Made by a program: the position numbers and the translations under genes
Notes under the pieces: model-generated
What the model saw: only the letters and a program-made list of their open reading frames with translations
The model's database searches: none
What the model was told of the DNA's origin: nothing
Assembly: GCA_018432315.1 (NCBI GenBank)
Contig: JAHDLB010000030.1
Span: forward strand, 124,001-188,000
Direction of reading: 5' to 3'
Source: Anaerolineae bacterium
Lineage (GTDB): Bacteria > Chloroflexota > Anaerolineae > Aggregatilineales > Aggregatilineaceae
DNA: 64,000 nt
Shown here: piece after piece, positions 40,027 through 64,000 of the stretch
Numbering within the stretch: position 1 is the first letter of the stretch
How the letters are laid out: the number at the start of each line of letters is the position of its first letter

Positions 40027-43000
40027 TTATCCCGCCGCCGCCTCGGTGACCGTCTCGGTCGCTTCTTCGGTGACGATCTCTGTTGCGTCCTCGGTGGCGA
40101 TCTCGGTTCCTTCTTCGGTCGCTTCCGCCGTCATGTCCGGGAGGGCGTTGCCCTCCTGCGGCGCCAGCGGGAGGACGTCGCCGCTGAGCTCCGGCGGCGG
40201 GAAGATGAACACCCGGTCCTGCTCGGCATCCACGACGAAGATCCGCCCCGTCTCGTCGACGGCCAGCCCGGCTGGCGAGCGCAGCCCCAGCTCGCCCGCT
40301 TCGAGATTGTCCGGCTGGTTGAACGAGAGCACCGGCGTGCCTTCCAGGTTATAGGCGACGATGCGGTGCCGGTCGTCCATGTCGGTCACGTAGAGCAGCG
40401 TGCCGTCCGGGCTGAAGTCGATGTATGGGCGGTTGAACGACTGCCGGTTCTGGAACCACATGTTGACCGGCCACTCGCGCAGCGGCTGCCCGTTCAGGTC
40501 GAACACCTGGACGCGCTTGTTCCACGCCTCGGCCACGTACAGCTCGCCCGTCACCGGGTTGAACGCCAGCCCCACCGGCTCGTCGAGCTGGCCGGTGCCC
40601 GATCCGCCGGCCCCGATGTCGCGCAGGAAGTCGCCTTCCGGCGTGTACACGCGGATCCGCTTGCCGCCGGTGTCGGCCACGTACACGTTGCCGTCCGGCC
40701 CCAGCGCGATGTCGCGCGGGCCCCAGAACGCGTCCGGGGACGAGTCCTGCGAGGGGATCCCCTCGTGGCCCCAGGCCCGCAGCAGTTCGCCTTCCGGATC
40801 GAATACCGCCACCCGGTTGTTCCACGTGTCGGCCACGTAGACCGTGCCGTCCGGCGCGACGTCCACGCCCCACGGCTGGCGCAGCAGCGCGAGTCCGTCG
40901 CCGCTGTCGGGCGCGTCGCCGATGGTTCGCACGAGCGTCCCGGCGGCGTCCATCACCACGATCCGGTTGAGGTCCGCATCGGTCACGTAGATCAGCCCGT
41001 CCGGCCCGACGTCGACGCCGCGCGGCCCGCTCAGGCCCACATCCTGGCCGACTACCGCCTCGGCCTGGACGTCCTGGTACACCTGGTCTTCCGGATACTC
41101 CGGCTCGCGGATGTTCACCGTGGCCGCGCCGATTCCCGCGTCCCACACCTGGGCCGCGATCTGCTTGTCCACGAAGAAGTACATCCGGTCCGACACGGGC
41201 CAGTTGTTGACGGCGAACCGGGTATCGGAACTGCACTCGGCCACCACGGCGCGCTCGCAGGCCGCCCGGTAACTGTCCTGCTCGCTCTCGGTCTGGCCCC
41301 AGGCGGCTTCGTCCTCACAGCGCGACTGCTTGCCCTCGATACACATCGCCTGCCCGTAGGTGCTGTAATCGCGATTCCACCAGATATCGAACATGCCCTG
41401 GCGATAATACTTGGCCGCGATGTTGCTCGGGTCGACGCTGAAGACGTTTGCCACCCGATCATACGTCAGGTTGAAGTACTCTTGCATCGGCCACCACAGC
41501 CGGATATAGCCGAATTCGTAGTAGCGGTCGCCCAGGATGCGCCGCACGTCCCCGGCCTTCTTGCTGCCGACGACGACCGTCTTGGCGCCGTCCAGCGAGG
41601 ACGGATCGACGCTGCCCGCCTCGCCGCGCAGGAATCCGTAGTTGGGATAGTCGCGGAAATACCACGTGTACGGCCACGACGACTCGTCGTCGAACACGAT
41701 CCGCATGTTCGCGCCTTCGTTGGTGATCGTCGCGATGCGGTCGATCTCGTTCAGCACGGTCTTGATCGCCGGGCCGGCGTGGGCATACACCAGGAATTCG
41801 GTCGCGTAGTCGTAATTGACGAAGCTCGCCATGTACGCCGCGCGCGCCGTCAGCACGCTCAGCATCACCGCGCCGGAGACGATCGCCATCCGGCCCAACT
41901 GCCCCAGGCCCATCCGCCGCCCGAACCGGCCCACGACGTACAGCACGCCCAGCAAGATCAGCAGCGCCGCCAGCCAGCTCCCGCTGGCGACCAGGTCTTC
42001 GATCTCGCGGCCCCGGAACGGGCCCTCCGTCCCCAGCGTCATCGTGACGACCTGCGCCAGCGCGAGGAACGCCAGCGGGAACGCCGCCACCAGCAGCAGC
42101 CAATCGCCGGACGTCATCGCCCGCCAGCGGATGCCCGTCACGACCTTGCCCAGCCACCACCCGGCGGCCAGGATCAGCGGGACGGTCAGGTGCGTGGTCA
42201 GCCAGGGCATTTTTTCGCCCGCCAGCGTCAGGGCCAGCAGAATCGTCACGGCCCAGTATCCCACCAGCGCCACGAACGGGAATTCGCCCAGCCATTCCGG
42301 GTGCAGGGTGCGATGGACGCGCTCCTCTGCCGGGTCGTAGGGCGCCGCCAGCCGCGCGGGCAGGCCGAACAGCCGCCGCCGGTCGGGCGCTTCCTCGCCT
42401 TCGATGCCTTCGACCTCCTCGTCGATCACCTCGTCACCGGCATCGATCACTGCCGGGTCCGGATCGAGCGCCGCCGCGTTCGCCACATCATCGGGATCGT
42501 CCTCGGGCGCGTCAGCGGCGTAGGCTTCGGCCAGCCGCGCCCGCCGGACCGCTTCCGCCCGTTCGCGGCGCCAGCCCCACAGCGACGACATGCCGAAGAT
42601 TCCGGCCAGCGACGCGCCGATCAGCGGCAGAAACTCGTACACGGGAAGCTGCGTCAGCACGTAGTAGTACTGCGGCTGGCTGCCCCGCCGGACGCCTTGC
42701 TGCTCCAGCCAGTAGCCCAGCGAGCCGATCATGCCGGTGACCAGGCCGTACTGGTTGCTGAACACCGTGGTGAAAAACAGCGCGAACAGCCCGATGAACA
42801 CCGCCGCCGCGGGCAGCCATCGCTTCCAGTTCCACGAGATCCCGACCACCGCCGACACCATGATGAACGGCACGACCGCGGGCAGCGTGGCTTCCAACGT
42901 GTCGCGTCCGGCGACCGAGTTCGGGTTGTAGTCCTCAAGGTTGTAGCCCGCCCAATAGAGCGGGAACGCCGCCAGCCAGGGCAAGATCAGCGTCCCGATC

Positions 43001-44544
43001 ACGATCAGCACGTCGAACAGCGGCTGGCGGTTCAGGAAGTCCCACCAGTGCGTGAGGTAGCGTGTGCCCAGCACGACGAGCGTCGCCAGCGTGCCCAGGA
43101 CCCACGCCACGACGATTGGCGTGTTGTCGTACTGGCCGTCGTCGGCGTGGGCCGTCGCGGTCGGATCGGCGGCGAAGGGCTGGGCCGACCCCTCTTCGAC
43201 GAAGCTGCGCCGCTCGAACAGCACCAGCACGCTCACCGTCACCAGCGCGATCAGGATCACCAGCAGGATCTCGCGCCAGGGCAGCGGCAGGTAGCCGGGG
43301 AACCGGAAGACCGCCGTCAGGAAGACGACGAACAGCAACAGCAGCACCGGCACGCCGATCCAGGTGACCATCCGGACGAACATCGCGCTGTCGAACCGGA
43401 CCGAGATCGCGTATTCCTTCGAGGCGTTCGGCCCGTACGTCTGGTCGTATTCGCTCATGACCGAGCGCGTCGTCCAGACCGTGTCCGGCTTGATGACGTC
43501 CAGCACGCACACGATCAACAGCGACACCAGCACGCCAATGACCAGCCCGGCCACGATGATCATGAACGCCGATTTGCCGTTCGACAGCCCCCGCATCAGC
43601 GCCAGCGCGGCCCCATTGCGAGACTGGCCCGCCCCGGCCATCCGGCCCCGGACGAAACCGGACACGGCCAGCGGCAGATACAACGCCAGGAACAGCGGCA
43701 GGTCGAACCACCAGCCCTCCGGCACCCACAGCGAGGCGCGGATCGCGTAGCGGATGAACTCGCCGAGCGGCACCGCGATCACGACCGCCAGGCCGAATAA
43801 GAGGATGTGGCCCAGGATCATCTGGAGCCGCGGGGCGTGCCAGCCGCCATCCGACGCCGGGCGCCGCTGCACGCCGATATCCTGCAGCATCCGCATCACC
43901 CAGTACAGCGTCATGAAGCTGCCGAACAGCGCGATGTAGATGAACGCGACTTCCTTCGAGGCCAGCATCCCCAGCAGCGCCCCGGCCAACACCCACAGCC
44001 AGGCCGCGCGCCGGGGCCGGTCGTTGTCGAGATAGCGCAGCATGGCGTACAGAACGACCAGCGCGAAGAAGATCGTCGGGATGTCGTGGCGGATGTAGCG
44101 GCTGTAATACAGCAACTGCGGCGAGATCAGCAGCAGGACCGCCGTGATCACCGCGCCCACGTGCCCCAGCCAACGCCGGAACAACGCCGGGAACATGACG
44201 ATCCCCACGCCCAACAACGCCGGGTAAATGCGCGAGGTGAAGTCCGTATCGCCGAACAGGAAATAGGACAGCGCCGTCATGTGGAACAACAGCGGGCCGT
44301 GCATCAGCGGCGTGTGGCTGAACTCCCCGAACTCGGTGAGCCGCCACGAGTAATAGGTATGCAGGCTCTCGTCGTGGCTCATCACCCGCGTGCCGAGATC
44401 GGCAAACCGCGTGACCAGCGCCAGGACCAGGATCACCGCGTAGGCGATCGCTTCCCAGTTGAGCGCGTAGGCCCGCGTCAGGACGCGCGTGAATGCCTGT
44501 TCGTGTGAGTCCGGGGGAGAATAGATCTGCTCGCGTGTCGCCAT
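40027..44544 (-). CDS. Agl23/TIGR03663-type membrane glycosyltransferase with C-terminal NHL propeller
   Basis: 1505 aa. The N-terminal two thirds (about 25-905) carry some 18-20 membrane helices. The first loop SHDESLHTYYSWRLTEFGEFSHTPLMHGPLLFH is the mark of the TIGR03663 group, related to PMT/GT39 transferases and reported to occur in genomes that also have Chlor_Arch_YYY proteins. An outer domain (about 910-1165) follows. Six or so NHL blades (about 1170-1455, with PRGVDVGPDGLIYVTDADLNR and similar repeats) come next, then a Thr/Glu-rich tail with TEIATEDATEIVTEE repeats. Likely a polyprenyl-phosphate-sugar dependent transferase with an outer sensing or docking propeller. The ribosome site is weak. 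It is the last gene of the long minus-strand operon. Confidence 0.85.
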   Translation of the reverse strand: MATREQIYSPPDSHEQAFTRVLTRAYALNWEAIAYAVILVLALVTRFADLGTRVMSHDESLHTYYSWRLTEFGEFSHTPLMHGPLLFHMTALSYFLFGDTDFTSRIYPALLGVGIVMFPALFRRWLGHVGAVITAVLLLISPQLLYYSRYIRHDIPTIFFALVVLYAMLRYLDNDRPRRAAWLWVLAGALLGMLASKEVAFIYIALFGSFMTLYWVMRMLQDIGVQRRPASDGGWHAPRLQMILGHILLFGLAVVIAVPLGEFIRYAIRASLWVPEGWWFDLPLFLALYLPLAVSGFVRGRMAGAGQSRNGAALALMRGLSNGKSAFMIIVAGLVIGVLVSLLIVCVLDVIKPDTVWTTRSVMSEYDQTYGPNASKEYAISVRFDSAMFVRMVTWIGVPVLLLLFVVFLTAVFRFPGYLPLPWREILLVILIALVTVSVLVLFERRSFVEEGSAQPFAADPTATAHADDGQYDNTPIVVAWVLGTLATLVVLGTRYLTHWWDFLNRQPLFDVLIVIGTLILPWLAAFPLYWAGYNLEDYNPNSVAGRDTLEATLPAVVPFIMVSAVVGISWNWKRWLPAAAVFIGLFALFFTTVFSNQYGLVTGMIGSLGYWLEQQGVRRGSQPQYYYVLTQLPVYEFLPLIGASLAGIFGMSSLWGWRRERAEAVRRARLAEAYAADAPEDDPDDVANAAALDPDPAVIDAGDEVIDEEVEGIEGEEAPDRRRLFGLPARLAAPYDPAEERVHRTLHPEWLGEFPFVALVGYWAVTILLALTLAGEKMPWLTTHLTVPLILAAGWWLGKVVTGIRWRAMTSGDWLLLVAAFPLAFLALAQVVTMTLGTEGPFRGREIEDLVASGSWLAALLILLGVLYVVGRFGRRMGLGQLGRMAIVSGAVMLSVLTARAAYMASFVNYDYATEFLVYAHAGPAIKTVLNEIDRIATITNEGANMRIVFDDESSWPYTWYFRDYPNYGFLRGEAGSVDPSSLDGAKTVVVGSKKAGDVRRILGDRYYEFGYIRLWWPMQEYFNLTYDRVANVFSVDPSNIAAKYYRQGMFDIWWNRDYSTYGQAMCIEGKQSRCEDEAAWGQTESEQDSYRAACERAVVAECSSDTRFAVNNWPVSDRMYFFVDKQIAAQVWDAGIGAATVNIREPEYPEDQVYQDVQAEAVVGQDVGLSGPRGVDVGPDGLIYVTDADLNRIVVMDAAGTLVRTIGDAPDSGDGLALLRQPWGVDVAPDGTVYVADTWNNRVAVFDPEGELLRAWGHEGIPSQDSSPDAFWGPRDIALGPDGNVYVADTGGKRIRVYTPEGDFLRDIGAGGSGTGQLDEPVGLAFNPVTGELYVAEAWNKRVQVFDLNGQPLREWPVNMWFQNRQSFNRPYIDFSPDGTLLYVTDMDDRHRIVAYNLEGTPVLSFNQPDNLEAGELGLRSPAGLAVDETGRIFVVDAEQDRVFIFPPPELSGDVLPLAPQEGNALPDMTAEATEEGTEIATEDATEIVTEEATETVTEAAAG
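40031..40130 (-). repeat. Short Thr/Glu-coding tandem repeats
   Basis: Degenerate 12-bp and 24-bp units coding (T/E)(I/V)(A/V)TE(D/E)AT at the end of the Agl23/NHL gene. This is a low-complexity C-terminal tail, probably a wall-spanning or surface spacer. Confidence 0.6.
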
Positions 44545-44559
44545 TCAATCACTATCCCA

Positions 44560-44997
44560 TCAATCAAACAGTTTCACGAAACGGTAGCCCGTCGCCGTGT
44601 AACCTAGCTGTTCGTAGAATTTGTGCGCCTCGTCCTTGCGCCCGAAGCCGCTCACCAGCCACGTGCCCAGACACCCGTGCTCGCGCGCCAGGTCTTCGGC
44701 GAAGGCCATCAGCGCGCGGCCAATTCCTCGCCGCCGGGACTCCGCGCCGGTCACGATGACCGACACCTCGCCATAGCGCCCCACGCGTTCCAGGCACTCG
44801 CGCAGGCGAAAGCCCAGCACCCCGCACACAGCGCCGTCCGTCTCGCCCACGTACAGCCAGTCGATCGGGCTGCGCGCCGCCCACTCCAGGCGTTCGCGCA
44901 TCTCGTCGGGCGTCATGGGCTGCCCAGTGAGCTGGCCCAGCAGCGCGCACGCCGCCGGGACGTCGTCCGGCGCCATCTCCCGGATCGCCAGCGTCAT
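44560..44997 (-). CDS. GNAT acetyltransferase
   Basis: 145 aa, single GNAT domain. RRRGIGRALMAFAEDLA is the acetyl-CoA loop, and EAHKFYEQLGYTATGYRFVK is the C-terminal block typical of small N-acetyltransferases close to the aminoglycoside 6'-type. Acceptor unknown. Gaps to its neighbours are 14-15 bases, so it belongs to the glycosylation operon, where it could acetylate an amino sugar; this is inference from position. Confidence 0.83.
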   Translation of the reverse strand: MTLAIREMAPDDVPAACALLGQLTGQPMTPDEMRERLEWAARSPIDWLYVGETDGAVCGVLGFRLRECLERVGRYGEVSVIVTGAESRRRGIGRALMAFAEDLAREHGCLGTWLVSGFGRKDEAHKFYEQLGYTATGYRFVKLFD

Positions 44998-45011
44998 TCG
45001 CCCGCCCCCGG

Positions 45012-45593
45012 TCAGTTCGTGCCGGGGACACCCAGGCCCGCTTCGGGCGATACGGTCGCCTCGGGCATGGGCGCCGGGCTGGCGCCGACCTCGACCGCAA
45101 ACGCGACCGTCGCCCGCGGAGCCCCCGCATCGCTCGCGGCCAGGACCATCCCCCAGGCGGGCGGATCATCCGTGACGCCGGGTGTGGGCGACGCCGTGCT
45201 GATCGGGCGCGGCTGGAGCGGCGCGGCTTCGGCGCGAATGCCGCTTTCGACCAGCAGCGGCACGGCAATCGCGATGACGACCAGCATCGCCAACACCACG
45301 CTCACGCCCGGCAGCCAGTTCGGGGGCAGCCCCCGCCGCGTCGGCGCGGCGCGCGCCGGGCCAATCTCCTCCCACACGTCCATCCACACGTGGCTGAGCT
45401 GGCCGGCGCTGGCCTGCCCGAAATGGGCGAATTCGCGCTGCACGTCCGCCGCCAGCCGTTCTTCGCGGGCCAGCGCGGCGCGGCACGCCGGGCAGGTGCG
45501 CACGTGGTTGATCACCACTGCGCGCTGGGCCGGGCGAAGCTGGTCGCTGACGTATCGGGTCAAAAGGTGAGTTACGTGACGGCGTCGCATCAT
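45012..45593 (-). CDS. Membrane anti-sigma factor with zinc-finger (ZAS) domain
   Basis: 193 aa. The N-terminal anti-sigma domain has H30-x3-C34-x2-C37 (INHVRTCPACRAAL), the zinc-binding anti-sigma signature. One membrane helix lies at about 94-115, followed by a Pro/Ala-rich outer segment of about 75 residues. It should hold the ECF sigma factor encoded 30 bases upstream until a signal outside the membrane releases it. Two adjacent ATG codons (45593, 45590) are possible starts. Confidence 0.87.
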   Translation of the reverse strand: MMRRRHVTHLLTRYVSDQLRPAQRAVVINHVRTCPACRAALAREERLAADVQREFAHFGQASAGQLSHVWMDVWEEIGPARAAPTRRGLPPNWLPGVSVVLAMLVVIAIAVPLLVESGIRAEAAPLQPRPISTASPTPGVTDDPPAWGMVLAASDAGAPRATVAFAVEVGASPAPMPEATVSPEAGLGVPGTN

Positions 45594-45623
45594 GTCATTC
45601 TCGAGTCACGTCCAGCACGGACG

Positions 45624-46259
45624 TCAAATACTCCACAGTTCTTCCAGGGCGGCGCGATCGGCGGCGCTCATCGCCTCGCGGAGTTGTTCGTGCGCCAGCC
45701 GGATGCGGCTCTCCGCGGTCTTTTGCGGGCACCCGATGATCTCCGCCATTTCGCGATAGGTCAGCCCGTGCCCGTAGCGCAGCGCGACCGCCTCGCGCAG
45801 CCGCGGCGACAGCGTGTGCAGCGCCTGCGCCAGCGATTCGCGCACGTCCTGCCACGCGGCCCGCGTTTCGGGCAGCTCGTCCACCGGCGCGGGCGGCTCG
45901 ATCCCGATGTTCAACAGGCTGCTCAGCGCCACCGTCGGCAGCCACTTGCGCCGCCGGGCGTTACGGCAGCGGCTGAGCGTGATCGTGTACAGCCACGTCC
46001 GGAAGGCGCCGCGCTGCGGATCATAGCGGTCCAGGTTCCGGAAGGCGTAGACCATCGACTCCTGCAGGACGTCTTCCGCGTCCTGTTCGACCAGCAGCAC
46101 GCTGTACGCCAGCCGGTACAGGCTGGGTGCGTAGCGCTCGTACAGCGCCGCGAAGGCGGCCTGCTCGCCGCGCAGACTCCGCTCGATCAGCTCCGGCAGA
46201 TCCGGATCGTTGGCGGTCCGTGCCCCGTTCGGGGAGTTTCGTGTGTTCATGTTGCTCAT
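45624..46259 (-). CDS. ECF-type RNA polymerase sigma factor
   Basis: 211 aa. Region 2 (about 28-100) has FAALYERYAPSLYRLAYSVLLVEQDAEDVLQESMVYAFRNLDRYDP, and region 4 (about 140-200) has LSPRLREAVALRYGHGLTYREMAEIIGCPQKTAESRIRLAHEQLR. The domain order and size are those of group 4 sigma factors. The cognate anti-sigma gene follows. It sits inside the glycosylation operon between two membrane proteins, so its activation may control that locus. ATG 46259 has a G-rich site (GGGGTG) upstream. Confidence 0.92.
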   Translation of the reverse strand: MSNMNTRNSPNGARTANDPDLPELIERSLRGEQAAFAALYERYAPSLYRLAYSVLLVEQDAEDVLQESMVYAFRNLDRYDPQRGAFRTWLYTITLSRCRNARRRKWLPTVALSSLLNIGIEPPAPVDELPETRAAWQDVRESLAQALHTLSPRLREAVALRYGHGLTYREMAEIIGCPQKTAESRIRLAHEQLREAMSAADRAALEELWSI

Positions 46260-46278
46260 TTCTACACCCCGCCCCCCG

Positions 46279-48249: not shown

Positions 48250-48264
48250 CACTCATCCTGTCGT

Positions 48265-51060: not shown

Positions 51061-51081
51061 CAGCGCCTATCCGCCGTCCAG

Positions 51082-57000: not shown

Positions 57001-58245
57001 CGCGACGAACGTCACCAGCACGGCCAGCGCGAAGATCGCGCTCGCGAACCCCAGCGCGATCAGGTCGTCGCCCAGGGCGAACTCGCGCGGCGCGGCCACG
57101 ATGAGCACCGTCCAGATCGCCAGGTACGCCGCCGACGCCAGCACGCCCGACGCCGCCACCAGCAGATCGCCCCATGCCCGCCCGCGCGCGGCCAGCACCC
57201 GGCGGGCGATCACCGTCGCCGCCAGGGCCAGCGCCGCGCAGATGCCCAGCGTCGCCAGCCCCAGGACCGGGTACTCCCGCGCGCCGGTTTCCCAGCCAGC
57301 GCCCACTGCCCACACCGCCAGGTACACCAGCGGGACCGGCCCGCGCCGGACGCTCGCGCCGTCCATCGCGCGCGCCGCCAGGTACAGCGCCAGCGTCACC
57401 CAGAACGTGGTGAACGCGTCCACCGTCCAGAAATGCGCCTGTTGGATCGGGAACGCGGCAACAGCATACAGCGCGGCGGCCAGCAGCCCGCTCCAGCGGC
57501 CATACAACTGCCGCCCCAGCAACAGCAGCACGATCACGGTCAGCCAGTCGGCCAGCGCCGAGATCGTCCGGCCCACGAGCTGGGCGCCGCTGTAGCCTTC
57601 CCAATGCGTCGTGATCGTGTGGCGCTGCGCGGCCTCTTCGTCGAACGCCTGCAGGAACGCGTGCACGTCCGCCGAAAGCTGCGAGCGCGCCACGCCCGCC
57701 GCGTGGACGGTGAACAGCGGGAACTCGCCGTAGACGTACAGCCCTTTGCCAATGTTGTTCGGGTTGAGCGGCGAGCAGTCGGCGTCGAAATACGGGCCGT
57801 GCCCCGCCGGGATCATGATCTGGTCCTCGCCCTCGCTGATCACGCGGGCCGGGTAGCGCTGCTCGCACCGTTCGCGGTGACGCTCCTGCTGCTCGACCGT
57901 CGAATCGGTGAAGTTCAGCGTGCGGCCAATCGAGCTCACCACGTCGGTCAGGAATCGCTCGTCGGGGTGCAGGTGCGTGTAATCGTCCCAGTTTTGCGCG
58001 TCGAATCGCAGCCAGCCCGCCACCCCCAGCACGATCGCCAGCAGCAGCGCAAACAGCGCGTCCGCCCGCTTGATTCGGGGGCGAACGCGGCCCGGCCCCG
58101 GCTCGTCGAGCACGACGAGCACGCGGCTCGCTTGCGCTTCTTCCGGCGCGGCCTCGGCCACCGCTGGCGACTCATCCCCGGCGGGCGTCTGCCAGTCTGG
58201 ATCGTCCTGAATTGGGTCTTCCAAAGGAGCGATATGGTCCGTCAA
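51082..58245 (-). CDS. Giant fusion: PMT-like transferase + outer domain + DUF2298/Chlor_Arch_YYY
   Basis: 2387 aa, the largest protein in the window. After a soluble acidic N-terminus (1-65) a PMT-like membrane domain runs to about 735, with the first loop DDYTHLHPDERFLTDVV holding the acidic residues. Residues about 745-1305 form a large extracytoplasmic beta-rich domain. From about 1310 a second membrane domain of the DUF2298 type follows, with GGEKPMDFAYFNAVL, FPPIDPWYAGGYMNYYYFGYV (YYYFG at 1474-1478) and FTFLYGDLHAHLIAMP, and then an outer end piece. No in-frame ATG is near; TTG 58245 with GGGA 7 bases upstream is the likely start. It directly precedes the single-domain DUF2298 gene, so both types lie side by side. 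Confidence 0.85.
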   Translation of the reverse strand: MTDHIAPLEDPIQDDPDWQTPAGDESPAVAEAAPEEAQASRVLVVLDEPGPGRVRPRIKRADALFALLLAIVLGVAGWLRFDAQNWDDYTHLHPDERFLTDVVSSIGRTLNFTDSTVEQQERHRERCEQRYPARVISEGEDQIMIPAGHGPYFDADCSPLNPNNIGKGLYVYGEFPLFTVHAAGVARSQLSADVHAFLQAFDEEAAQRHTITTHWEGYSGAQLVGRTISALADWLTVIVLLLLGRQLYGRWSGLLAAALYAVAAFPIQQAHFWTVDAFTTFWVTLALYLAARAMDGASVRRGPVPLVYLAVWAVGAGWETGAREYPVLGLATLGICAALALAATVIARRVLAARGRAWGDLLVAASGVLASAAYLAIWTVLIVAAPREFALGDDLIALGFASAIFALAVLVTFVAAGVVRRQSMGLPVAWSQSLAVGSVGIMWMALVVGLLAGGLSSRPTLFVAAAAIALLILDVTELTDYALFGVALGGAVASRINVAPLAGIIVVAAAIRALPALDRALPRVQRNRLVAYALTGVMAAAVMSFVVFRLLQPHAFLGPGLFGLQFNPGWRDDVSEAAHLTSGNWDAPPNHQWANRTPYLFPWRNIVLWGLGIPLGVVSWAAWAWAGLSMIRARREWTRHAIPFLWVLVCFGWLGGRWVTTMRYFLPIYPALALFAAWAMIRLVGAAWRGWQARPAAAQRLALAGAVGLLIVVLGYTTVYGFAFHNIHRQQLTRVAASRWFQETVPGDFGIWVEADGGTRKLVNIGRGYVANPPAIAHLEQGESVAFDTLPGAVDPATQQPYPFTLGGDAQLTAIVLHRVGDPAQDPEPETVRVRLFRDDPALGRQMVFEDAVTADFSESESPYGRSVTFEPGDEVILPQTVPSGGEAARYVLEITAVEGGPVMFTHNVVEGETTILFDVSVGLRKVADGSNATIDFTLPEQPFLVGYGDDIPATPTHWTVGGRDEIPFAIPIDGTIRTIEIPHLGDVLRDADEETIRLSVVGPDGQVASASITDDFNRDADPLGQPRLVELDPPLEVRRLDASGSRQMATLVVEALDPVYTSGPVVAWEGDWDDPVPWPVCAIPDDVIYRDDLPSGLSSWDCAAVSVYGGYYQGIKLWMSLEDNQQKRDAMINALDQADYLVITSNRFYDSLSRMPMRWPMTLAYYDALFDGRLGYELVKVFESPPSLGPITIRDQALPTDDLPGWVNEHWEAEEAFHVYDHPAVLVFAKTDAYSHDNTAAILDSVSIRPVSAANAGYVVDPEPVGVVPWGAKQASEAPTLIEFPDDKWATQREGGTWSRLFDLDALVNRSEVAAVIVWWALIVIAGWLAWPLLFVAFPALPDRAYPLAKTAAWLIVAWVAWVGGTLGVASWSRTGIAIILLALAALSGLLLWRRRADWWLNVRRGWRYMLALEGLAALLFAFFLWVRLGNPDLWHNAFGGEKPMDFAYFNAVLRSTIFPPIDPWYAGGYMNYYYFGYVIVGAPVKLLGIQPSVAYNLIIPALYAMTGTAVFSIAYNWVAARRDGVDVVPRPERRDEFLPAPETGEPAADGDTQPVAIAAELLAPVVRGEPRAPKGNPWLAGLAALVLAMVLGNLGTVHVIVTNVAAMPGENGAPRYTKPPLFSQVRQQEIEPRRTEIYDRFYAEAVEDFRDEHGYAPTDLETFELVREAQERTDAYIESYINHPPLVRLWEYELGNLRRQVSAFVAGLGDVLGGKQLPMATHRWYWAPTRILAELPNNAGGGAILEMPYFTFLYGDLHAHLIAMPVTLLALAWLLAEILGAGRRLRTWWEAGLALGIGALAVGLLRPTNSWDWITYLLLGAAGLTYVAWLGAVRAPGERRASPLADRLWDLLRPSRAREWWVLVGVVPLAVGARIAFYLLQQMQADQQTRRGLRLGEELIDPSLTAGSIVLWVLGALALVGMIYVALLIALRAGIDRRLLVDWTGRVVLFVGLTFVVALPFTAYFATAYNSVKPWEGQATPLWVYLYVHGLFLFIAVSFLVWQSARWLRYTAVRQLQGLAVPVLVVLGGMAIVLAGSIVYGVREVPAAQVAVPLIAWAALLFFLPRQNALLRAVYALIVLALAITIGVEVVVLDGDIGRQNTVFKFYLQVWFLLSVVGGVALAWMLRTAGQWKVGVRIAWQTGLMILVAAALLYPLLATQARFLDRFNRDETPRTLDGMAYMKHAIHGEHGVWFSLESDYHLIRWLQDNVEGTPVVMEAHLYPSEYHWGGRISIYTGLPTMLGWTFHQRQQHTLPNMDVLVQTRENNSAAFYALDGEAGIEAVLGLIRHYDIEYIVVGILERVFYDDIELNPDTGKLSAGHAAGLAKFETMVGRGLLEVVYEAPVCLDTSAGDIEACPAESVYMDRVYRVVPGAATEAASARADG

Positions 58246-58312
58246 AATGTCATCCCGACCCGTTCTTGAGCGTCGATCATCCTATCCAATACACGCGCGC
58301 CGGGGCCAATCC

Positions 58313-61300
58313 TCACCCGGTCACGCCTTCCAGGTCGCCGGCCTGGACGCGGTACACGTAAAACGACCCGGTTGCCCGGCCCCCTTCGGTGTCGTAGGTA
58401 TATTCGACCAGCTCGCTGACCCCGCCGGGCAGCGCGTCTTCCAGGTAGGCCCCCGTTTCGGCGTCCTGCGCGTTGTACATCACGAACAGGGGCCGGTCCG
58501 GATCGTAGGCGTAGCGCGTCCCGGCGTTGGCCCGGATCTGGCCGAACAGGTCGTCGCGCGTCACCAGCCCGTTGGGCCAGCGAATGTCGCCCGCCATCGT
58601 ACCGAGAATCCGGTGATCCAGCCAGTGCGGATAGGCCACCATGAACGCGTTGCCGTAGCTCCCCTCTCCCTGGGCGAACGCGCGCAGTGGCTTGGCGATC
58701 TCGCGGTACGGCTTCCAACTGGCGCTGTAGCTGAGGCGGTAGTGGGTGAAGTAGTTGTCCCAGTTGGGGCGGATGTCCTGCCACAGCACGCCCGCGACCA
58801 GAATCACCGCGATCGCCGCACCGGCAGGGACTACGCCCGCGACCCGCCACGGCGCCTGGCTCAGCCGCCAGCAGAGCGTCCCCAGCGGCAGCGCGGCCAG
58901 CAGGAACACGACCGGGATCGTGCCGCTGGCGCGGGTGAAGCTGGGATTCTCGATCGTGTAAGCGAGCGTCAGCGCCGAGGGCAGCAGCATCACCAGCCCG
59001 GCCAGCGGCAGCAACCACGCCACCGGATCGCGCCCTCTCAGCAGGCGAATGCCCCACATCACCAGCCCCAGGATCAGCAGGCCGCCGGGCAGCGCGCTCA
59101 GCGCCGGGCGGGCGTGCGCGTTGTTGATCCAGGCGCTGTCACCCTCCCAGTGAAACATGCTCAGGGCATCCTTCGCGTTCTGCTCGAACACCGCTCGCTG
59201 GTCCCAAAAGCGCTCGATCTGCTCGCCCAGCGGCGGGTCGTAGGGCACCGCCGTGCCCACTGCCGGGTCGAAGCGCACGAAGGCATCCTCGCCGAACAGC
59301 CTGCCCCGCGTCCGGTTCCAGAAGTCGTTCGGGTTGATCTCGCTGTAGTGGTACATGGGGATGAACACCGCCAGCGCGACGACCACTGTCGCCAGCAGCC
59401 CGCCGCCGGTCTGGAGCACGTGATCCGGCTGGCGGGCGCGCACGATCAGCGCCAGGATCGCCAGCCACACCATCGCGAACAGCGGCGTCAGCGAGCCCAG
59501 GCGCTCGCCCAGGTTGTGCAGGTTGGTATAGCCCGCCTGTTCGAGCACCTGCCCGGCGTACCAGTACACCAGCAGCGGCGAGGCCGCCAGCGCCGCGAAG
59601 CCGAGCACCTCCCCGGCGCGGCGCGCAAAATCGCGGGGCGTGCGGACGCCGCGCAGCAGCGCCAGCCCGGTCCCGATCAGCACGACGACCGGCAGCATCC
59701 GGTTGGCCTGGTAGAAGTAGACGCCCGCGCCGAGGACCAGCCCCAGCGCCACGTAATCGCGCATCCGGTTGCCGCGCATCGCCCGCGCCAGGAACCCGAT
59801 CGCCAGCGCGGTCGTCAGCGGGGTGAGCACGATGCGCAGGCCCAGCCGCGAGAGCATGACGTGCCACGTGCTGACCGCCACCAGCCCCGCCATGACCAGC
59901 CCGACCCAGTTCCCCAACTGGCGATCGCGCTCGGTGGCGCTGCCGATCACCTGCCGGGCCATCCACCACAGGGCCGGCAGCGTGATCAGGCCCTCGATCG
60001 CGGTTGCCAGCTTCAGCGCCCGGAAGCTGAACCCCGCGCCGAACCAGTCCGCGATGGCCGCGACCGCATACATCTGGAAGGCCTCGCGCCCGCCGTTGTT
60101 GGGGAAGAATACGCCGTAATAGCCCTCGCTGATGCGCAGCGCGTCCAGCAGCTTTTCGATGTGGTCGCTGGTCATTTCCGGCGGCGTGGAGTCGAGAGCG
60201 TGTAGCCGGAAGAGGGCGCCGACCGCCATGATCGCGAGCAGGGCCAGCCCCGTCCAGGTCGGGCGCAGCCGCGCCGCCAGCCGCCGGAGCGCCGCCGGAG
60301 CATCGAACGCGTCCCAGCGCTCCGGCAGCGTCCGCACGTCCACGGCCAGGATGATGACCCACAGGATGATGCTCGCGATCCACGCGGCAGCCCCGCCGGT
60401 CGTGAAGACGACGTCCGTCACCTGGTCGAGCGTGTCGCGCTGCACGTTGAGCGAATACGCCGCCGCCGAGAGCAGCAGCGCCACCGGCACCAGCATCAGC
60501 CGCGCCAGGTGTTCCGCCAGCCAGGCAGCCGAGCGGCCCGGCGCGCGGGGAGCGCTCTCCGCCACCACCGACCGGACGACGAACGAATCACGGTCACCCG
60601 CCGCCGCGCCGGGCTGGTCCTCAATCAGCAGTTCCGGCGTCACGTCGAGCGCGGGCGCGTTCGCCAGCACCAGCGCGATCCACAGGCCGAGCGCCAGAGC
60701 CAGCAGGGCGAGCGCAATCCAGCCGCCGCTCACGGCGGCCAGCCACAGCGCGGCCACGATCGCCAGCGCCAGCCCGCCGTTCCACGCCACGGGTCGCTCG
60801 CTCTGCTGAATGCGGCGATGCAGCCATTCGGCGGCGCGCGGAAAACGCCGCTGCCACCAGCCGCGCCCCTGAACGACCGCATGGCCCACCACCAGGGCGC
60901 TCGCCGCCAGCAGCCACAGGAACGCGCCGTTGGTGCTGCGCGTCACGTGCAGCGCCGGATCGAGCGTGGCCGCGTGCAGCACGGTCCCGCCGCGCAGCGC
61001 CAGCAGCACCGCCACCAGCAGCACGCCCGCCCCGGTCCACCACGCGCGCGCCTGGATCACCCCGCCCCGCGGAGCGGCCAGAACGGCGGGCACCGCCGCC
61101 GGTTCCGCGCCTGTCACCGCCGGCCACACGTCTCCCGCTTCCTGGTCTTCACCGGGGGTTTCGTCCCGGTCCTCGACTGCCGCCGGGGGCACCGCGTCCG
61201 CCGGCTCGCCGCCGTCGTCCTCGCCGGGCCAGGCGGGCGGCTCGGCCTCGCCCGCGCCGGGTTCCTCGTAGGTGAGCACCTGCCAGAACAGCCGCGCCGT

Positions 61301-61465
61301 CTCCGCCGGGCGCCAGAACAGGTACGCCAGCGCCTGCCCTAGCGACAGGTCCTCGAACACGAGATCGGTCTGAGTCGCGGCAGGCTCCGCCGCCGGGTGG
61401 CCGGCGCCGGGCTGTTCGTCCGCGGGATCGGCGGGGGGAGAGTCAGGTGTCCAGTTGTCGGTCAT
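58313..61465 (-). CDS. Long PMT/GT39-like membrane glycosyltransferase
   Basis: 1050 aa. The N-terminal 130 residues are acidic and Pro/Ala-rich, probably cytosolic and disordered. A first set of membrane helices (about 140-390) is followed by the PMT core, with the loop STPPEMTSDHIEKLLDALRI near 425-445 carrying acidic residues, SRLGLRIVLTPLT, and YFYQANRM. The C-terminal outer part has KPLRAFAQGEGSYGNAFMV. Expected to move a sugar from polyprenyl phosphate. It is 67 bases upstream of the giant fusion gene, the largest gap in the operon, so a minor promoter could lie there. Confidence 0.83.
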   Translation of the reverse strand: MTDNWTPDSPPADPADEQPGAGHPAAEPAATQTDLVFEDLSLGQALAYLFWRPAETARLFWQVLTYEEPGAGEAEPPAWPGEDDGGEPADAVPPAAVEDRDETPGEDQEAGDVWPAVTGAEPAAVPAVLAAPRGGVIQARAWWTGAGVLLVAVLLALRGGTVLHAATLDPALHVTRSTNGAFLWLLAASALVVGHAVVQGRGWWQRRFPRAAEWLHRRIQQSERPVAWNGGLALAIVAALWLAAVSGGWIALALLALALGLWIALVLANAPALDVTPELLIEDQPGAAAGDRDSFVVRSVVAESAPRAPGRSAAWLAEHLARLMLVPVALLLSAAAYSLNVQRDTLDQVTDVVFTTGGAAAWIASIILWVIILAVDVRTLPERWDAFDAPAALRRLAARLRPTWTGLALLAIMAVGALFRLHALDSTPPEMTSDHIEKLLDALRISEGYYGVFFPNNGGREAFQMYAVAAIADWFGAGFSFRALKLATAIEGLITLPALWWMARQVIGSATERDRQLGNWVGLVMAGLVAVSTWHVMLSRLGLRIVLTPLTTALAIGFLARAMRGNRMRDYVALGLVLGAGVYFYQANRMLPVVVLIGTGLALLRGVRTPRDFARRAGEVLGFAALAASPLLVYWYAGQVLEQAGYTNLHNLGERLGSLTPLFAMVWLAILALIVRARQPDHVLQTGGGLLATVVVALAVFIPMYHYSEINPNDFWNRTRGRLFGEDAFVRFDPAVGTAVPYDPPLGEQIERFWDQRAVFEQNAKDALSMFHWEGDSAWINNAHARPALSALPGGLLILGLVMWGIRLLRGRDPVAWLLPLAGLVMLLPSALTLAYTIENPSFTRASGTIPVVFLLAALPLGTLCWRLSQAPWRVAGVVPAGAAIAVILVAGVLWQDIRPNWDNYFTHYRLSYSASWKPYREIAKPLRAFAQGEGSYGNAFMVAYPHWLDHRILGTMAGDIRWPNGLVTRDDLFGQIRANAGTRYAYDPDRPLFVMYNAQDAETGAYLEDALPGGVSELVEYTYDTEGGRATGSFYVYRVQAGDLEGVTG

Positions 61466-61471
61466 CGCGGG

Positions 61472-62344
61472 TTATTCTGGCTTGCGCCCCTTCAGAGCGA
61501 GATTCACGGTACTGCGGCCCGGCGGCTCGTCGAGCTTGTTCGGGCGGTCGAACAGGTTCAACACCGCCACACCCAGGTTGATCGGATTCAACAGGCTGCC
61601 CCGGTTTTTGTCAAACGTGGTGCGTCCGGCAGCGTTCGACATCGCCTCCGGCATCAGACCGGACTCGAGCAGCGGCTTGCCCAGCCCATACACCAGGTTG
61701 TGAATGAACGGGAAACTGTAATGCGTGAAGGACCGCTCGGCCTCCACCATGAACCCGGCCCCCTCCGCCGCCGCGCGGAGCTCGTCGCGCTCGTACAGCC
61801 GCACGTGACCCGCCCAGATGCCCGCCAGCGGCCCGCGCCGGATCTTCGTATGCAGCACCGTCTCCAGCGTCTTGTTGATCGGGTCCCACCAGAACGGGTA
61901 GTTCGCGTGCGGCACCGTGATCGCCACCACGCCGCCCGGCTTGAGCACGCGCCGCACCTCGCGCAGCCCGGCCACGTCGTCGTCGATATGCTCCAGAATC
62001 TCGGACAGGATCACGCCGTCGAAATAGTCGTCGGGAAACGGCAGCGCGAAGATGTCCCCACGCGTCAGCGTGACGTCCGGCAGGTGACCGGCGTTGCGCT
62101 GCGCCTTGGCGATGATGTCGGCATCCAGCTCCAGGCCCACCAGCCGGCACGCGCTGACGTGGCGCACCATGTTCAGGTAAAAGCCGCGCCCGCACGCACA
62201 GTCGAGAATGCGCGCGTCGTCGGCCAGCGGCATCCACTCGAAGATCGTCTGCACCCGCTTCTTGAAGGCCATGTCAGCCTCGTTGCGGGTCATGTGCTCG
62301 ATGGTCCGGGGATCGACTGGGGTCACAGGGCGTTTCCTTCCCAC
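61472..62344 (-). CDS. SAM-dependent class I methyltransferase
   Basis: 290 aa, cytosolic. RILDCACGRGFYLNMV is motif I (SAM binding, with CACGRG in place of the usual GxGxG), LPFPDDYFDGVILSEILEHIDD covers motifs II-III and RVLKPGGVVAITVP motif IV. It belongs to the Methyltransf_11/25 group seen in lipid, quinone and sugar modification. GTG 62344 starts 4 bases after the glycosyltransferase stop; the internal ATG at codon 18 is an alternative. Context suggests it methylates a sugar or lipid intermediate of the pathway. Confidence 0.85.
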   Translation of the reverse strand: MGRKRPVTPVDPRTIEHMTRNEADMAFKKRVQTIFEWMPLADDARILDCACGRGFYLNMVRHVSACRLVGLELDADIIAKAQRNAGHLPDVTLTRGDIFALPFPDDYFDGVILSEILEHIDDDVAGLREVRRVLKPGGVVAITVPHANYPFWWDPINKTLETVLHTKIRRGPLAGIWAGHVRLYERDELRAAAEGAGFMVEAERSFTHYSFPFIHNLVYGLGKPLLESGLMPEAMSNAAGRTTFDKNRGSLLNPINLGVAVLNLFDRPNKLDEPPGRSTVNLALKGRKPE

Positions 62345-62348
62345 GCGC

Positions 62349-63536
62349 TCACCGCGACGACCGGCGCGCGGCCTGGCGCAGGTGCTTCTCGTACCGGTCG
62401 ACGGTCTCTTCCAGGTTGAACGTTTGCTCGATGTGCTCGCGCGACTTGCGGTACTGCTCGGGATGCTGCACGATGTCCACCACCGCCCGCCCGATGGCCT
62501 CCCAGTCCCCGCGCGGGACGATCTGGCCCATGCCGCTGGCCGTTACGGGGACGCGCCCGCCGGGCGTGTCCGTCATCACGACCGGCGTCCCGCACAACAT
62601 GGCCTCCACCTGCACCAGCGCGAAGCACTCGGTATCGCTCGGCATCACCAGCACGTCGCACGCCGCGTAGAAATTCGCCATGGCCTGCATGTTGGCAAGC
62701 TGGCCCAGGAAGACCAACTGGTCCTCATAGCGCTGGATCAGCGCCTGGTTGTTCTCCCACGTGTCTTCGTAGCGGATGTCGTATTCCCCGGCGAACACCA
62801 CGCGCGCCGTCGGGAACGTCTGGTTGATCACTTCGAGCGCGCGGATCAACAGGTCGGGCCGCTTTTCCTGCACGAACCGGCCCGCGTAGCCGATGATCGG
62901 CCCGCCGTTTTTCCGCCAGCGGGCGCGCAGCTCCGCCACGCGCTCCGGGTTCGGGTCCGGCACCTCGATCGGCGGGTAGATCACCGAAACGTTGTCCCGG
63001 AAGGGGCTGAGATAATAGCTGTGGTCGGCGTAATCGTGGCTGTAGGCGATCAGCCGGGCGGCGCGCTCGGCCATGAAGCGGTAATTCTGGAACGTGAACC
63101 AGCGCACGAAGCGGTTGAAGAATCCCTGCGGCAGGATCAAGTCGCCGTGATGCGTGGCGATCAACTGCTTGCCCGCCGCCCGCGTGAGCACGGTCATCAG
63201 CGCCGTTTCGAGCATGGGCGTGTGCAGCCACACGACATCGTGCTGCCGGATCAGGCCCCAGGCCGCGTACGGATAGGCGGGCATCACCATCCCGCGGCTG
63301 ATGCGCAGCGGCGCCCACAGCCGCACCAGCCGCACGCCGTTGATCGTTTCGTCGCGCGGCAGGTCGATGCTGTGGCGCGCGGCCAGGATGGTGACCTGGT
63401 GCCCGCGCTGGACGAGTTTCTCGGCGACCCGCTGCAAATGGATGGGCACGCCGGTGCGGTGTGGCAGGTAATATTGCAGCGCCGCCAGGATCTTCAGCGG
63501 TGGATCGCCGCGCTGCTCAGATAAACGCTCGGTCAT
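62349..63536 (-). CDS. GT4 family glycosyltransferase
   Basis: 395 aa, cytosolic, GT-B fold. The N-terminal acceptor domain has LPHRTGVPIHLQRVAEKLVQRGHQV; the donor domain has YAGRFVQEKRPDLLI and the E-x7-E block SDTECFALVQVEAMLCGTPVV. It transfers a sugar from a nucleotide or lipid donor, most likely to a lipid carrier or lipid on the cytosolic face, before flipping by the adjacent membrane protein. ATG 63536 has GGGAG upstream and lies 9 bases after the flippase-like gene. Confidence 0.9.
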   Translation of the reverse strand: MTERLSEQRGDPPLKILAALQYYLPHRTGVPIHLQRVAEKLVQRGHQVTILAARHSIDLPRDETINGVRLVRLWAPLRISRGMVMPAYPYAAWGLIRQHDVVWLHTPMLETALMTVLTRAAGKQLIATHHGDLILPQGFFNRFVRWFTFQNYRFMAERAARLIAYSHDYADHSYYLSPFRDNVSVIYPPIEVPDPNPERVAELRARWRKNGGPIIGYAGRFVQEKRPDLLIRALEVINQTFPTARVVFAGEYDIRYEDTWENNQALIQRYEDQLVFLGQLANMQAMANFYAACDVLVMPSDTECFALVQVEAMLCGTPVVMTDTPGGRVPVTASGMGQIVPRGDWEAIGRAVVDIVQHPEQYRKSREHIEQTFNLEETVDRYEKHLRQAARRSSR

Positions 63537-63545
63537 AATCTCCCA

Positions 63546-64000
63546 TCACGTCTGGCTGTGGAGGCCAGGGGCCAGCTCGGCGTCCCCCTCCGGCGCTCGC
63601 CCGCGCGCGCGCAAATTCTGGGCGGCTTGCATAATCTCGCCCAGGCCGACATTCTCCACCCACAGCCCGATCAAGCCCATCAGGATGTACGTCGCCAGGT
63701 TGACCACGTGCAGCAGCAGCGCAAATGCCACCGAGGGCGCGTCGCTGGCCTGGTCGACCAGCCCGGCCCCCGCCAGCCCAAACGCCACCGCCGCCTCGAA
63801 CGGCCCCAGGTTGCCCGGCACCGCCGGCACGGCCACCACGAACGACGCCAGCGCCACCATCGCCATCGACGCGGCCCAGGTCGGCTCGTCGAAGATGGCG
63901 AACAGCAGGATATAGCCCGCCACCACCGACGCCGCCCAGCCTGCCGCCGTCCAGCCGATGACCTGCAGCCCGGCGCGCGGCGACGACAGGCACAGCAGGC
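63546..64000 (-). CDS. Lysylphosphatidylglycerol synthase TM-region/YbhN-like membrane protein (5' end outside window)
   Basis: The last 151 residues are visible and the frame is open to the window edge. PAVPGNLGPFEAAVAFGL is the conserved PGxLGxFE block of the UPF0104/LPG_synthase_TM family, flanked by hydrophobic helices (VVAGYILLFAIF, MAMVALASFVVAV, FALLLHVVNLATYILMGLIGLW). A short polar tail of about 35 residues ends it. Related proteins are often found with GT4 transferases and are proposed to move lipids or lipid-linked sugars. The N-terminal part lies beyond the right edge. Confidence 0.85.
   Translation of the reverse strand, partial: LLCLSSPRAGLQVIGWTAAGWAASVVAGYILLFAIFDEPTWAASMAMVALASFVVAVPAVPGNLGPFEAAVAFGLAGAGLVDQASDAPSVAFALLLHVVNLATYILMGLIGLWVENVGLGEIMQAAQNLRARGRAPEGDAELAPGLHSQT

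Follow-up and report, generated by a model that had tools for sequence, protein, structure and literature searches.

Extracytoplasmic glycosylation systems of the three-component kind comprise a polyprenyl-phosphate-sugar synthase, a flippase and a glycosyltransferase of the C fold class (GT-C), as described by Kelly et al. 2024 (PMC11127046). For family TIGR03663, named flippase activity-associated in NCBIfam, another study reports that its Haloarcula hispanica member, Agl23, suppresses a yeast rft1 deletion and that the purified protein supports the movement of lipid-linked oligosaccharide in liposomes (PMC11182771); Agl23 does not appear in the main text of PMC8993221. TIGR03662, which corresponds to DUF2298 (PF10060), is not mentioned in the literature that we searched, and DUF2298 is named there by two papers, one of which has it in an appendix line on a Chloroflexi gene beside a PMT2/PA14 entry. 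Here we analyse a window of 64,000 nucleotides from an Anaerolineae bacterium of the order Aggregatilineales (assembly GCA_018432315.1, contig JAHDLB010000030.1, positions 124,001 to 188,000), in which a row of 11 genes unites members of both families with an extracytoplasmic function (ECF) sigma factor. We consider it fairly likely that this row is a conserved cassette, controlled by the ECF sigma factor, which builds or attaches a polyprenyl-linked glycan on the outer face of the cytoplasmic membrane. Literature searches around Chloroflexi, ECF, GT-C, Aggregatilineales and Agl22 returned nothing on this cassette.

Results

The row occupies positions 40027-64625 on the minus strand, to which all cassette coordinates below refer, with intergenic gaps of 4-67 bp and its last gene crossing the right edge of the window. 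Gene boundaries, strand, gaps and families, taken from open reading frame coordinates and family scans, agree with a preliminary description of the locus, whose two hallmark families were both recovered by profile search over the NCBIfam cut-offs (300.25 bits for TIGR03662 and 126.25 bits for TIGR03663). TIGR03662 is present twice: in a 931-aa protein (DUF2298-931; 48265-51060; 420.7 bits) and, from about residue 1357, in a 2387-aa fusion protein (51082-58245; 434.8 bits, PF10060 E 9.7e-99). TIGR03663 is present once, in a 1505-aa Agl23-type membrane protein with a PMT domain and a C-terminal NHL beta-propeller (40027-44544; 259.3 bits, with PMT_2 and NHL matches). The row holds two more PMT-like membrane proteins, of 657 aa (PMT657; 46279-48252) and 1050 aa (PMT1050; 58313-61465); the PMT_2 profile scores over its cut-off of 26.1 bits in the former (30.0) and under it in the latter (19.9), and PMT657 falls outside TIGR03663 at 35.4 bits.

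Between PMT657 and the Agl23/NHL gene lie the regulators. The ECF sigma factor (211 aa; 45624-46259) contains PF04542 and PF08281 with no region-3 match (Sigma70_r2 4.1e-19, r4_2 1.4e-12, TIGR02937 103 bits), and the anti-sigma factor (193 aa; 45012-45593) contains a zf-HC2 zinc finger (PF13490, 26.7 bits against a cut-off of 22.2) and one hydrophobic segment at residues 89-123 by hydropathy.

TIGR03662 was found in 213 of the 301 sampled Chloroflexota genomes with at least 80% completeness, in 194 of them over the cut-off, and its profile also matches two archaeal control genomes. Across the 101 genomes of the window's order, TIGR03662 occurs in 98 (92 over cut-off) and TIGR03663 in all 101 (93 over cut-off). 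These and the following counts rest on six-frame profile searches, because a codon-based gene caller missed the ECF and anti-sigma genes in relatives of lower GC content; the search profiles were built from the fetched relatives, and matches in those same genomes hold by construction. The order PMT657, ECF, anti-sigma, Agl23/NHL is collinear in 19 of 21 stretches from the same order, namely the window's own and 20 relatives, which were picked by hand since both families share one contig and are not a random draw.

The neighbourhood also holds in a set of 80 loci. Rightward, 57 loci reach at least 7 kb past DUF2298-931 (the other 23 are too short on that side and were excluded); PMT657 is present in 54 of them, Agl23N in 41, an ECF gene together with Agl23N in 38, the anti-sigma gene in 36 and GNAT in 3, while Agl23N stands without the ECF gene in 3 and both are missing in 15. 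A 39th, weak ECF hit (L135) sits elsewhere, outside the Agl23N pairing, and in L178 the ECF and anti-sigma genes are placed between the two DUF2298 genes. Leftward, the 60 loci with 8 kb in view carry the 2387-type gene in 58 cases, PMT1050 in 52, the GT4 gene in 41 and the methyltransferase gene in 40. The GNAT acetyltransferase (145 aa; 44560-44997; PF00583 E 9.7e-14) is found in five of eight stretches of the window's family and in none of the 13 others, by a profile built from that family, and is thus accessory and not a core part.

One locus (L154), from a record titled Bacteroidetes, carries an Aggregatilineales-type cassette from LPG_synthase_TM to Agl23N and is probably a binning error. 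In relative G345 the gene caller placed an extra 605-aa gene, PMT-like by eye, between PMT1050 and the 2387-type gene (L272, contig 2 near 531642), with a site of the promoter-like motif described below 90 bp upstream.

Outside the window's family, the regulators and Agl23 remain together. Four other families of the order supplied 21 genomes, and in each of these the closest match to the ECF sigma factor (50-71% identity, the next best at no more than 39%) adjoins Agl23 on the same strand, which rules out the ECF gene as a chance neighbour; all 11 of those genomes that were read in sequence have the order ECF, anti-sigma, Agl23N. In family f86 the cassette is split: the nine genomes read carry the DUF2298 genes elsewhere and the ECF gene still beside Agl23, and because the three genes stay together there, ECF, anti-sigma and Agl23/NHL are a separable module, the core of the control unit. 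The one genome read from family f87 (G307, locus L122) has DUF2298, PMT657, ECF, anti-sigma and Agl23 together.

DUF2298-931 was modelled with AlphaFold2 from an alignment with 67 relatives, at a mean confidence (pLDDT) of 92.6 and a predicted template modelling score (pTM) of 0.94. Foldseek returned six Protein Data Bank (PDB) chains at E<=0.001, from AglB, DPY19 and a translocon containing oligosaccharyltransferase (OST), whose chain was taken as STT3. In a second structure comparison, the top 40 rows, with Z from 7.4 to 16.0, all belong to proteins of the GT-C fold or to C-terminal domains of AglB, and the next row scores Z 4.9. The rows of PIG-U and PimE we take to be GT-C. On these models, DUF2298/TIGR03662 has a predicted GT-C fold. 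PF10060 may already belong to Pfam's GT-C clan. Across 68 DUF2298 sequences (4 of the 71 eligible proteins were left out of the alignment) E141 is invariant, as are M144, PPxDxW, ISYY..G and DxHPH.

The 2387-aa protein has Pfam and NCBIfam matches to DUF2298/TIGR03662 only, and its residues 50-1230 (54556-58098) match no family in either database. The AlphaFold2 model of this N-terminal half (pLDDT 89.4, pTM 0.86) shows a membrane part up to about residue 745 and a mostly beta-rich remainder. Its Foldseek search gave nine PDB chains at E<=0.001, eight from OST or OST complexes and one from an insecticidal crystal protein that looks like chance; in the second comparison GT-C proteins fill the top 38 rows (Z 9.8-22.1), including Pmt4 at Z 20.3 (root-mean-square deviation (rmsd) 3.5 over 411 residues), followed by matches to the beta-rich part at Z 7.8 or less. 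The half is thus predicted by its model to have the GT-C fold as well. It carries W-DD and HPDE motifs, and D95/E96 are conserved in 59 sequences (2 of 60 N-halves were left out of the alignment), while the fused DUF2298 domain keeps the E of GGE-P-M in 18 sequences.

The other three large membrane proteins are GT-C candidates through their PMT and PMT_2 matches. In Agl23, D58-E59 and H82-G83-P84 are invariant in 30 sequences, an alignment from which 10 of 39 relatives, mostly divergent ones, were left out; all 30, the window's included, bear NHL repeats. One of the 30 also has an FGE-sulfatase domain (E 5.1e-28). PMT1050 relatives match PMT_2 at E<=0.01 in 30 of 33 sequences, with D434, E437 and D441 invariant (16 of 48 relatives left out). 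For PMT657, a first look at 18 sequences found no D or E identical in 95% of them within the first 260 residues; this apparent loss of the acid was overturned by residue 63, which is D or E in 96% of 49 rows. In sequence alignments, a conserved acid thus lies early in each module, after the first GT-C membrane helix, and by position these residues may be the equivalents of the GT-C catalytic acid. The PMT1050 family also has a conserved C-terminal W-x-D-x-R-x-x-G at residues ~948-959, with WWDY in 5 of 33, which to our eye resembles the WWDYG motif of STT3.

The best surviving alternative, which is plausible although we think it rather less than probable, is that the glycan is built onto a cell-wall polysaccharide or lipoglycan and not onto a protein, in an arabinan-like elaboration by enzymes of the AftA and Emb type. 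DUF2298-931 matches, among others, AftA, AftB, AftD, Emb and PimE, and the N-terminal half matches AftA, AftD and Emb; the predicted extracellular beta-rich domains also recall the GT-Cs with carbohydrate-binding modules of PMC11127046. These enzymes of the Aft, Emb and PimE kind score lower in Z than the protein-modifying GT-Cs, which is a weak argument against this alternative.

The membrane proteins could alternatively be mainly flippases or scramblases, with Agl23 and a DUF2298 partner moving lipid-linked sugars outward and enzymes encoded elsewhere performing the transfer. The NCBIfam name and the activity of H. hispanica Agl23 in yeast and in liposomes (PMC11182771) speak for this; we regard it as unlikely, since the conserved acids in every module and the predicted GT-C fold of the two modelled ones fit a transferase, and six modules would seem excessive for flipping alone.

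We see still weaker grounds for viewing the DUF2298 proteins as OST-like enzymes of bacteria and archaea, which would transfer an entire lipid-linked glycan to protein. Their best rows are STT3 and AglB (Z 16.0 and 14.4), and residues 772-929 match the C-terminal globular domain of AglB-S2 (3vu0; Z 12.6, rmsd 2.5, 128 residues). However, ArnT, DPY19 and Pmt4 score within ~3 Z units, and for this reason the fold cannot separate OST from single-sugar transferases. A WWDYG-type motif in the C-terminal domain is the mark of the oligosaccharyltransferases (STT3/AglB/PglB); WWD[YFW] is missing in 68 of 68 DUF2298 sequences, and the family was therefore not filed as an oligosaccharyltransferase.

A shared promoter-like element, TGAGGAW-N14-GTGTA, lies ahead of the ECF gene, the 2387-aa gene and others. 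Within the window it has the form (T)GAGGAT-N14-GTGTA and stands directly upstream of the ECF gene (46263-46287) and upstream of the 2387-aa gene (58290-58314); a variant, TGGGGAA-N14-GTGTA, lies upstream of LPG_synthase_TM at 64670-64692, outside the window. The upstream alignments used cover the LPG_synthase_TM, 2387-type and ECF blocks. The site before the ECF gene is no more than four bases from the annotated start, and for this reason the ECF message may be leaderless or start later. A standard sigma-70 promoter scan of 44400-64000 found none, with a mean of 1.0 in shuffles.

The motif was first read from the ECF upstream stretches of f86, and the GGAT variant was admitted after the window's own sites had been seen. 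We searched GAGGAW-N12-15-GTGTA in 94 loci (1.80 Mb), made up of the 80 loci, ten f86 ECF-side stretches and G000, G310, G329 and G345, with near-identical pairs of metagenome-assembled genomes (e.g. L173/L184) retained. Of 69 matches, 58 fall in upstream intervals (-250 to +60 relative to a cassette gene), which together cover 4.5% of the strand-bases: 29 before ECF genes, 20 before 2387-type genes, 4 before DUF2298-931, 3 before anti-sigma genes and 2 before LPG_synthase_TM. Ten control patterns (five shifted spacings, one reversed, one swapped and three scrambled) gave 1-15 matches each, 0-2 of them in these intervals. Among the 58, a T that the pattern did not require precedes 57, the spacer is 14 in 49 although 12-15 were allowed, and GAGGAW ends with A in 41 and with T in 17.

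The motif also tracks the ECF gene. A strict site is present in 31 of the 42 loci with an ECF gene in view, in 2 of 20 that show 6 kb without an ECF gene, and in 3 of 18 cut loci. We searched for an ECF gene elsewhere in the genomes of 17 of the 20 ECF-absent loci (all except L186, L191 and L193) and of 3 of the 18 cut loci. All five motif-bearing loci without an ECF in view come from genomes that have one on another contig (54-68% identity; the match in the L174 genome spans 119 residues); two of them, L175 and L189, probably represent cassettes broken at a contig end, as the ECF there follows a PMT657 piece. Of the 15 further loci, 4 come from genomes with an orthologue and 11 from genomes with none at E<=1e-25. 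At the nine ECF places so located (L285-L293), a slightly looser pattern found the site upstream of the ECF gene in six and only before the anti-sigma gene in L287; none was seen near the ECF in L285 and L292.

Genome-wide, the pattern matches 68 times in 14 ECF-bearing genomes and its reversed form 16 times; by reading of coordinates, 23 of those 68 matches are at cassette genes. With a tighter spacer, the counts for 18 genomes of the window's family are 33 matches and 3 reversed, with at least one match in 13, and the 11 genomes without an ECF orthologue show no excess (14 against 18 reversed). On three contigs of the split genome G359, the site stands before the ECF gene, before the 2387-type gene and before a piece with LPG_synthase_TM, GT4 and methyltransferase genes. 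These results suggest that much of the cassette is probably under the control of its own ECF, by way of a common promoter. A GGAA-type -35 element is typical of ECF promoters.

That a different sigma factor or regulator reads the motif in a genuine GT-C glycan locus, with the ECF and anti-sigma genes as mere neighbours, we hold to be very improbable: a strict site is missing from the upstream intervals of 11 of the 42 ECF loci, yet the ECF found in the genomes of all five motif loci that show none in view, the missing excess in the 11 genomes without an orthologue, the GGAA-type -35 and the 29 of 58 matches that precede the ECF gene itself, the usual pattern of autoregulation, all speak for the ECF.

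Several sites lie away from the cassette. Three genomes of family f83 have a site ahead of a second LPG_synthase_TM-type gene as well, a conserved off-cassette target identified by Pfam in G318, by profile in G324 and by sequence likeness in G311, and followed by a gene resembling an FAD-oxidoreductase (Pfam in G318 only); in two genomes the site precedes a UDP-glucose/GDP-mannose dehydrogenase gene (f83 sites at L252:5807-5831 and 9651-9675, L253:6025-6047 and 9849-9873, and L254:3187-3211). In G345 alone it precedes frr, uppS, which encodes the undecaprenyl diphosphate synthase of the lipid carrier, and a cdsA-type gene (L256:6317-6342). On contig 13 of the window's genome, a site that may be chance (L255:6958-6983) lies before an aspartate/ornithine carbamoyltransferase gene, beyond which follows a DAC-domain (DisA-type) gene, and a site-associated gene in G355 resembles a prenyl synthase by eye only (L233). 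Matches inside coding sequence (e.g. L225, L239, L267 and L282) were not counted as regulon members.

The left part of the cassette, at the right edge of the window, encodes a flippase-like LPG_synthase_TM protein (63546-64000 in the window, gene to 64625; PF03706 E 2.4e-41; L013:5546-6625), a GT4-family glycosyltransferase of 395 aa (62349-63536; PF00534 E 1.9e-28) and a class I S-adenosylmethionine methyltransferase of 290 aa (61472-62344; PF08241 E 1.4e-20). Past the edge, two frames overlap at ~64.8-66.0 kb. The row probably ends at 64625, because the plus-strand frame (64777-65949) scores as coding over the minus-strand one and its homologue in three relatives (G310, G329, G345) likewise points away from the cassette. 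Further on are a PGM/PMM gene and a nucleotidyltransferase gene on the minus strand, and downstream of Agl23/NHL sit proS, nusA and infB. The host genome comprises 5.69 Mb in 66 contigs.

Discussion

Computation provides, for this locus, a conserved gene order, the family matches, predicted folds for two modules and a motif that is enriched and co-occurs with the ECF gene. From these we infer catalysis, substrates, a reading of the motif by the ECF and a signal, along the following lines. The cytoplasmic GT4 enzyme and methyltransferase would act on a sugar or lipid-linked sugar, and the passage of the polyprenyl-linked sugar to the outside would fall to LPG_synthase_TM, Agl23 or both. There, sugars could pass from their polyprenyl carriers onto a surface acceptor by the action of as many as six GT-C modules (Agl23, PMT657, DUF2298-931, PMT1050 and the two halves of the 2387-aa protein), assisted perhaps by the extracellular beta-rich domains of the 2387-aa protein and the NHL propeller of Agl23. 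The membrane anti-sigma factor would hold the ECF sigma factor, which on release would transcribe, from TGAGGAW-N14-GTGTA, its own gene, the 2387-aa gene, LPG_synthase_TM and others where the site exists. Control by an envelope signal is suggested by analogy, from the type of ECF and membrane anti-sigma pair.

The preliminary description had proposed a surface glycosylation or glycolipid pathway, encoded by one transcript unit with a full set of genes for making, methylating, flipping and transferring a lipid-linked sugar, and had called for a conserved neighbourhood in relatives. That neighbourhood was found, in the 19 chosen stretches and in the 80-locus set, and together with the predicted GT-C folds and a shared candidate sigma promoter that tracks the ECF it supports the pathway reading in part. 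The single transcript and the full set are not borne out in that form. The close gaps between genes favour one operon, but the promoter-like sites inside the row, with the variant outside it, suggest that the cassette is probably read as several transcripts under one control; and family scans of the 11 genes contain neither a polyprenyl-phosphate-sugar synthase nor a nucleoside-diphosphate-sugar enzyme. The statement that the function of TIGR03663 is not known is outdated, given the in vitro translocation of lipid-linked oligosaccharide by H. hispanica Agl23 (PMC11182771).

Several results weigh against an ECF-controlled GT-C cassette. With respect to the enzymes, the fold match of DUF2298 is remote: TM-scores of the six Foldseek chains are 0.26-0.33 by query, and the best row of the second comparison covers 483 residues at an rmsd of 7.3. 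The DUF2298 sequence profile finds no solved GT-C structure up to E=1 and no OST among 19 PDB sequences, so that the link to GT-C rests on fold, and the missing WWD[YFW] counts here too. A predicted fold does not show activity. With respect to control, two of the 21 stretches (G333 and G348) have neither ECF nor anti-sigma gene and three of the 41 loci with Agl23 in view carry no ECF, from which it follows that the cassette can do without it. Apart from the ECF loci without a strict site, 17 of 35 with the 2387-type start in view have no site there; 5 of the 18 genomes of the window's family have no strict match at all, and no cassette gene of the split genomes G306 and G355 has one. Away from cassette genes lie 45 of the 68 genome-wide matches, several within coding sequence. 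Finally, the motif was derived from part of its test set: 8 of the 58 matches are in f86 source loci and 2 in the window's genome, which leaves 48 independent ones.

A bolder extension, which we offer as a long shot, is that DUF2298/TIGR03662 would found a new OST-like GT-C class common to archaea and Chloroflexota, and that in Aggregatilineales Agl23-NHL and the ECF/anti-sigma pair would form a feedback unit: the outer propeller would monitor how much glycan is available or what state the acceptor is in, and would use the anti-sigma factor to set expression of the whole machine, even for genes that lie apart. More immediately, a predicted GT-C fold with named candidate active-site acids makes the function of DUF2298, widespread in Chloroflexota and barely covered in the literature searched, directly testable. 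A short motif tied to one ECF could also serve as a handle for the remaining pathway genes, such as those for sugar nucleotides and lipid carriers, in the largely uncultured Chloroflexota.

What is new is the combination of parts and the fold assignment of DUF2298; the parts themselves are of known kinds. Like the three-component systems of PMC11127046, the cassette has flippase-type and GT-C parts and extracellular domains that may bind substrate; unlike them, it has many candidate GT-Cs, no synthase and an ECF regulator of its own. The window's Agl23-type protein lies above the TIGR03663 cut-off, with D58-E59 and H82-G83-P84 invariant in 30 sequences, and differs from H. hispanica Agl23 as a putative flippase fused to NHL repeats (30 of 30 scanned) and partnered with an ECF. 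STT3, AglB and PglB are the top rows for both modelled modules, and for the C-terminal domain of DUF2298 as well, in predicted structure; DUF2298 differs from them in lacking WWD[YFW] and any sequence-profile match up to E=1. With TIGR03662/PF10060 as known, the two cassette genes have in common a score far over the cut-off, with the invariants named above holding across 68 sequences, to which this study adds a predicted GT-C fold, the fusion of one copy to a family-less GT-C half and an ECF-linked promoter. Known pairs of ECF and zinc-finger membrane anti-sigma factors likewise set sigma r2/r4 domains beside a zf-HC2 protein with a single hydrophobic segment; unlike theirs, the regulon here appears to be centred on a glycan cassette.

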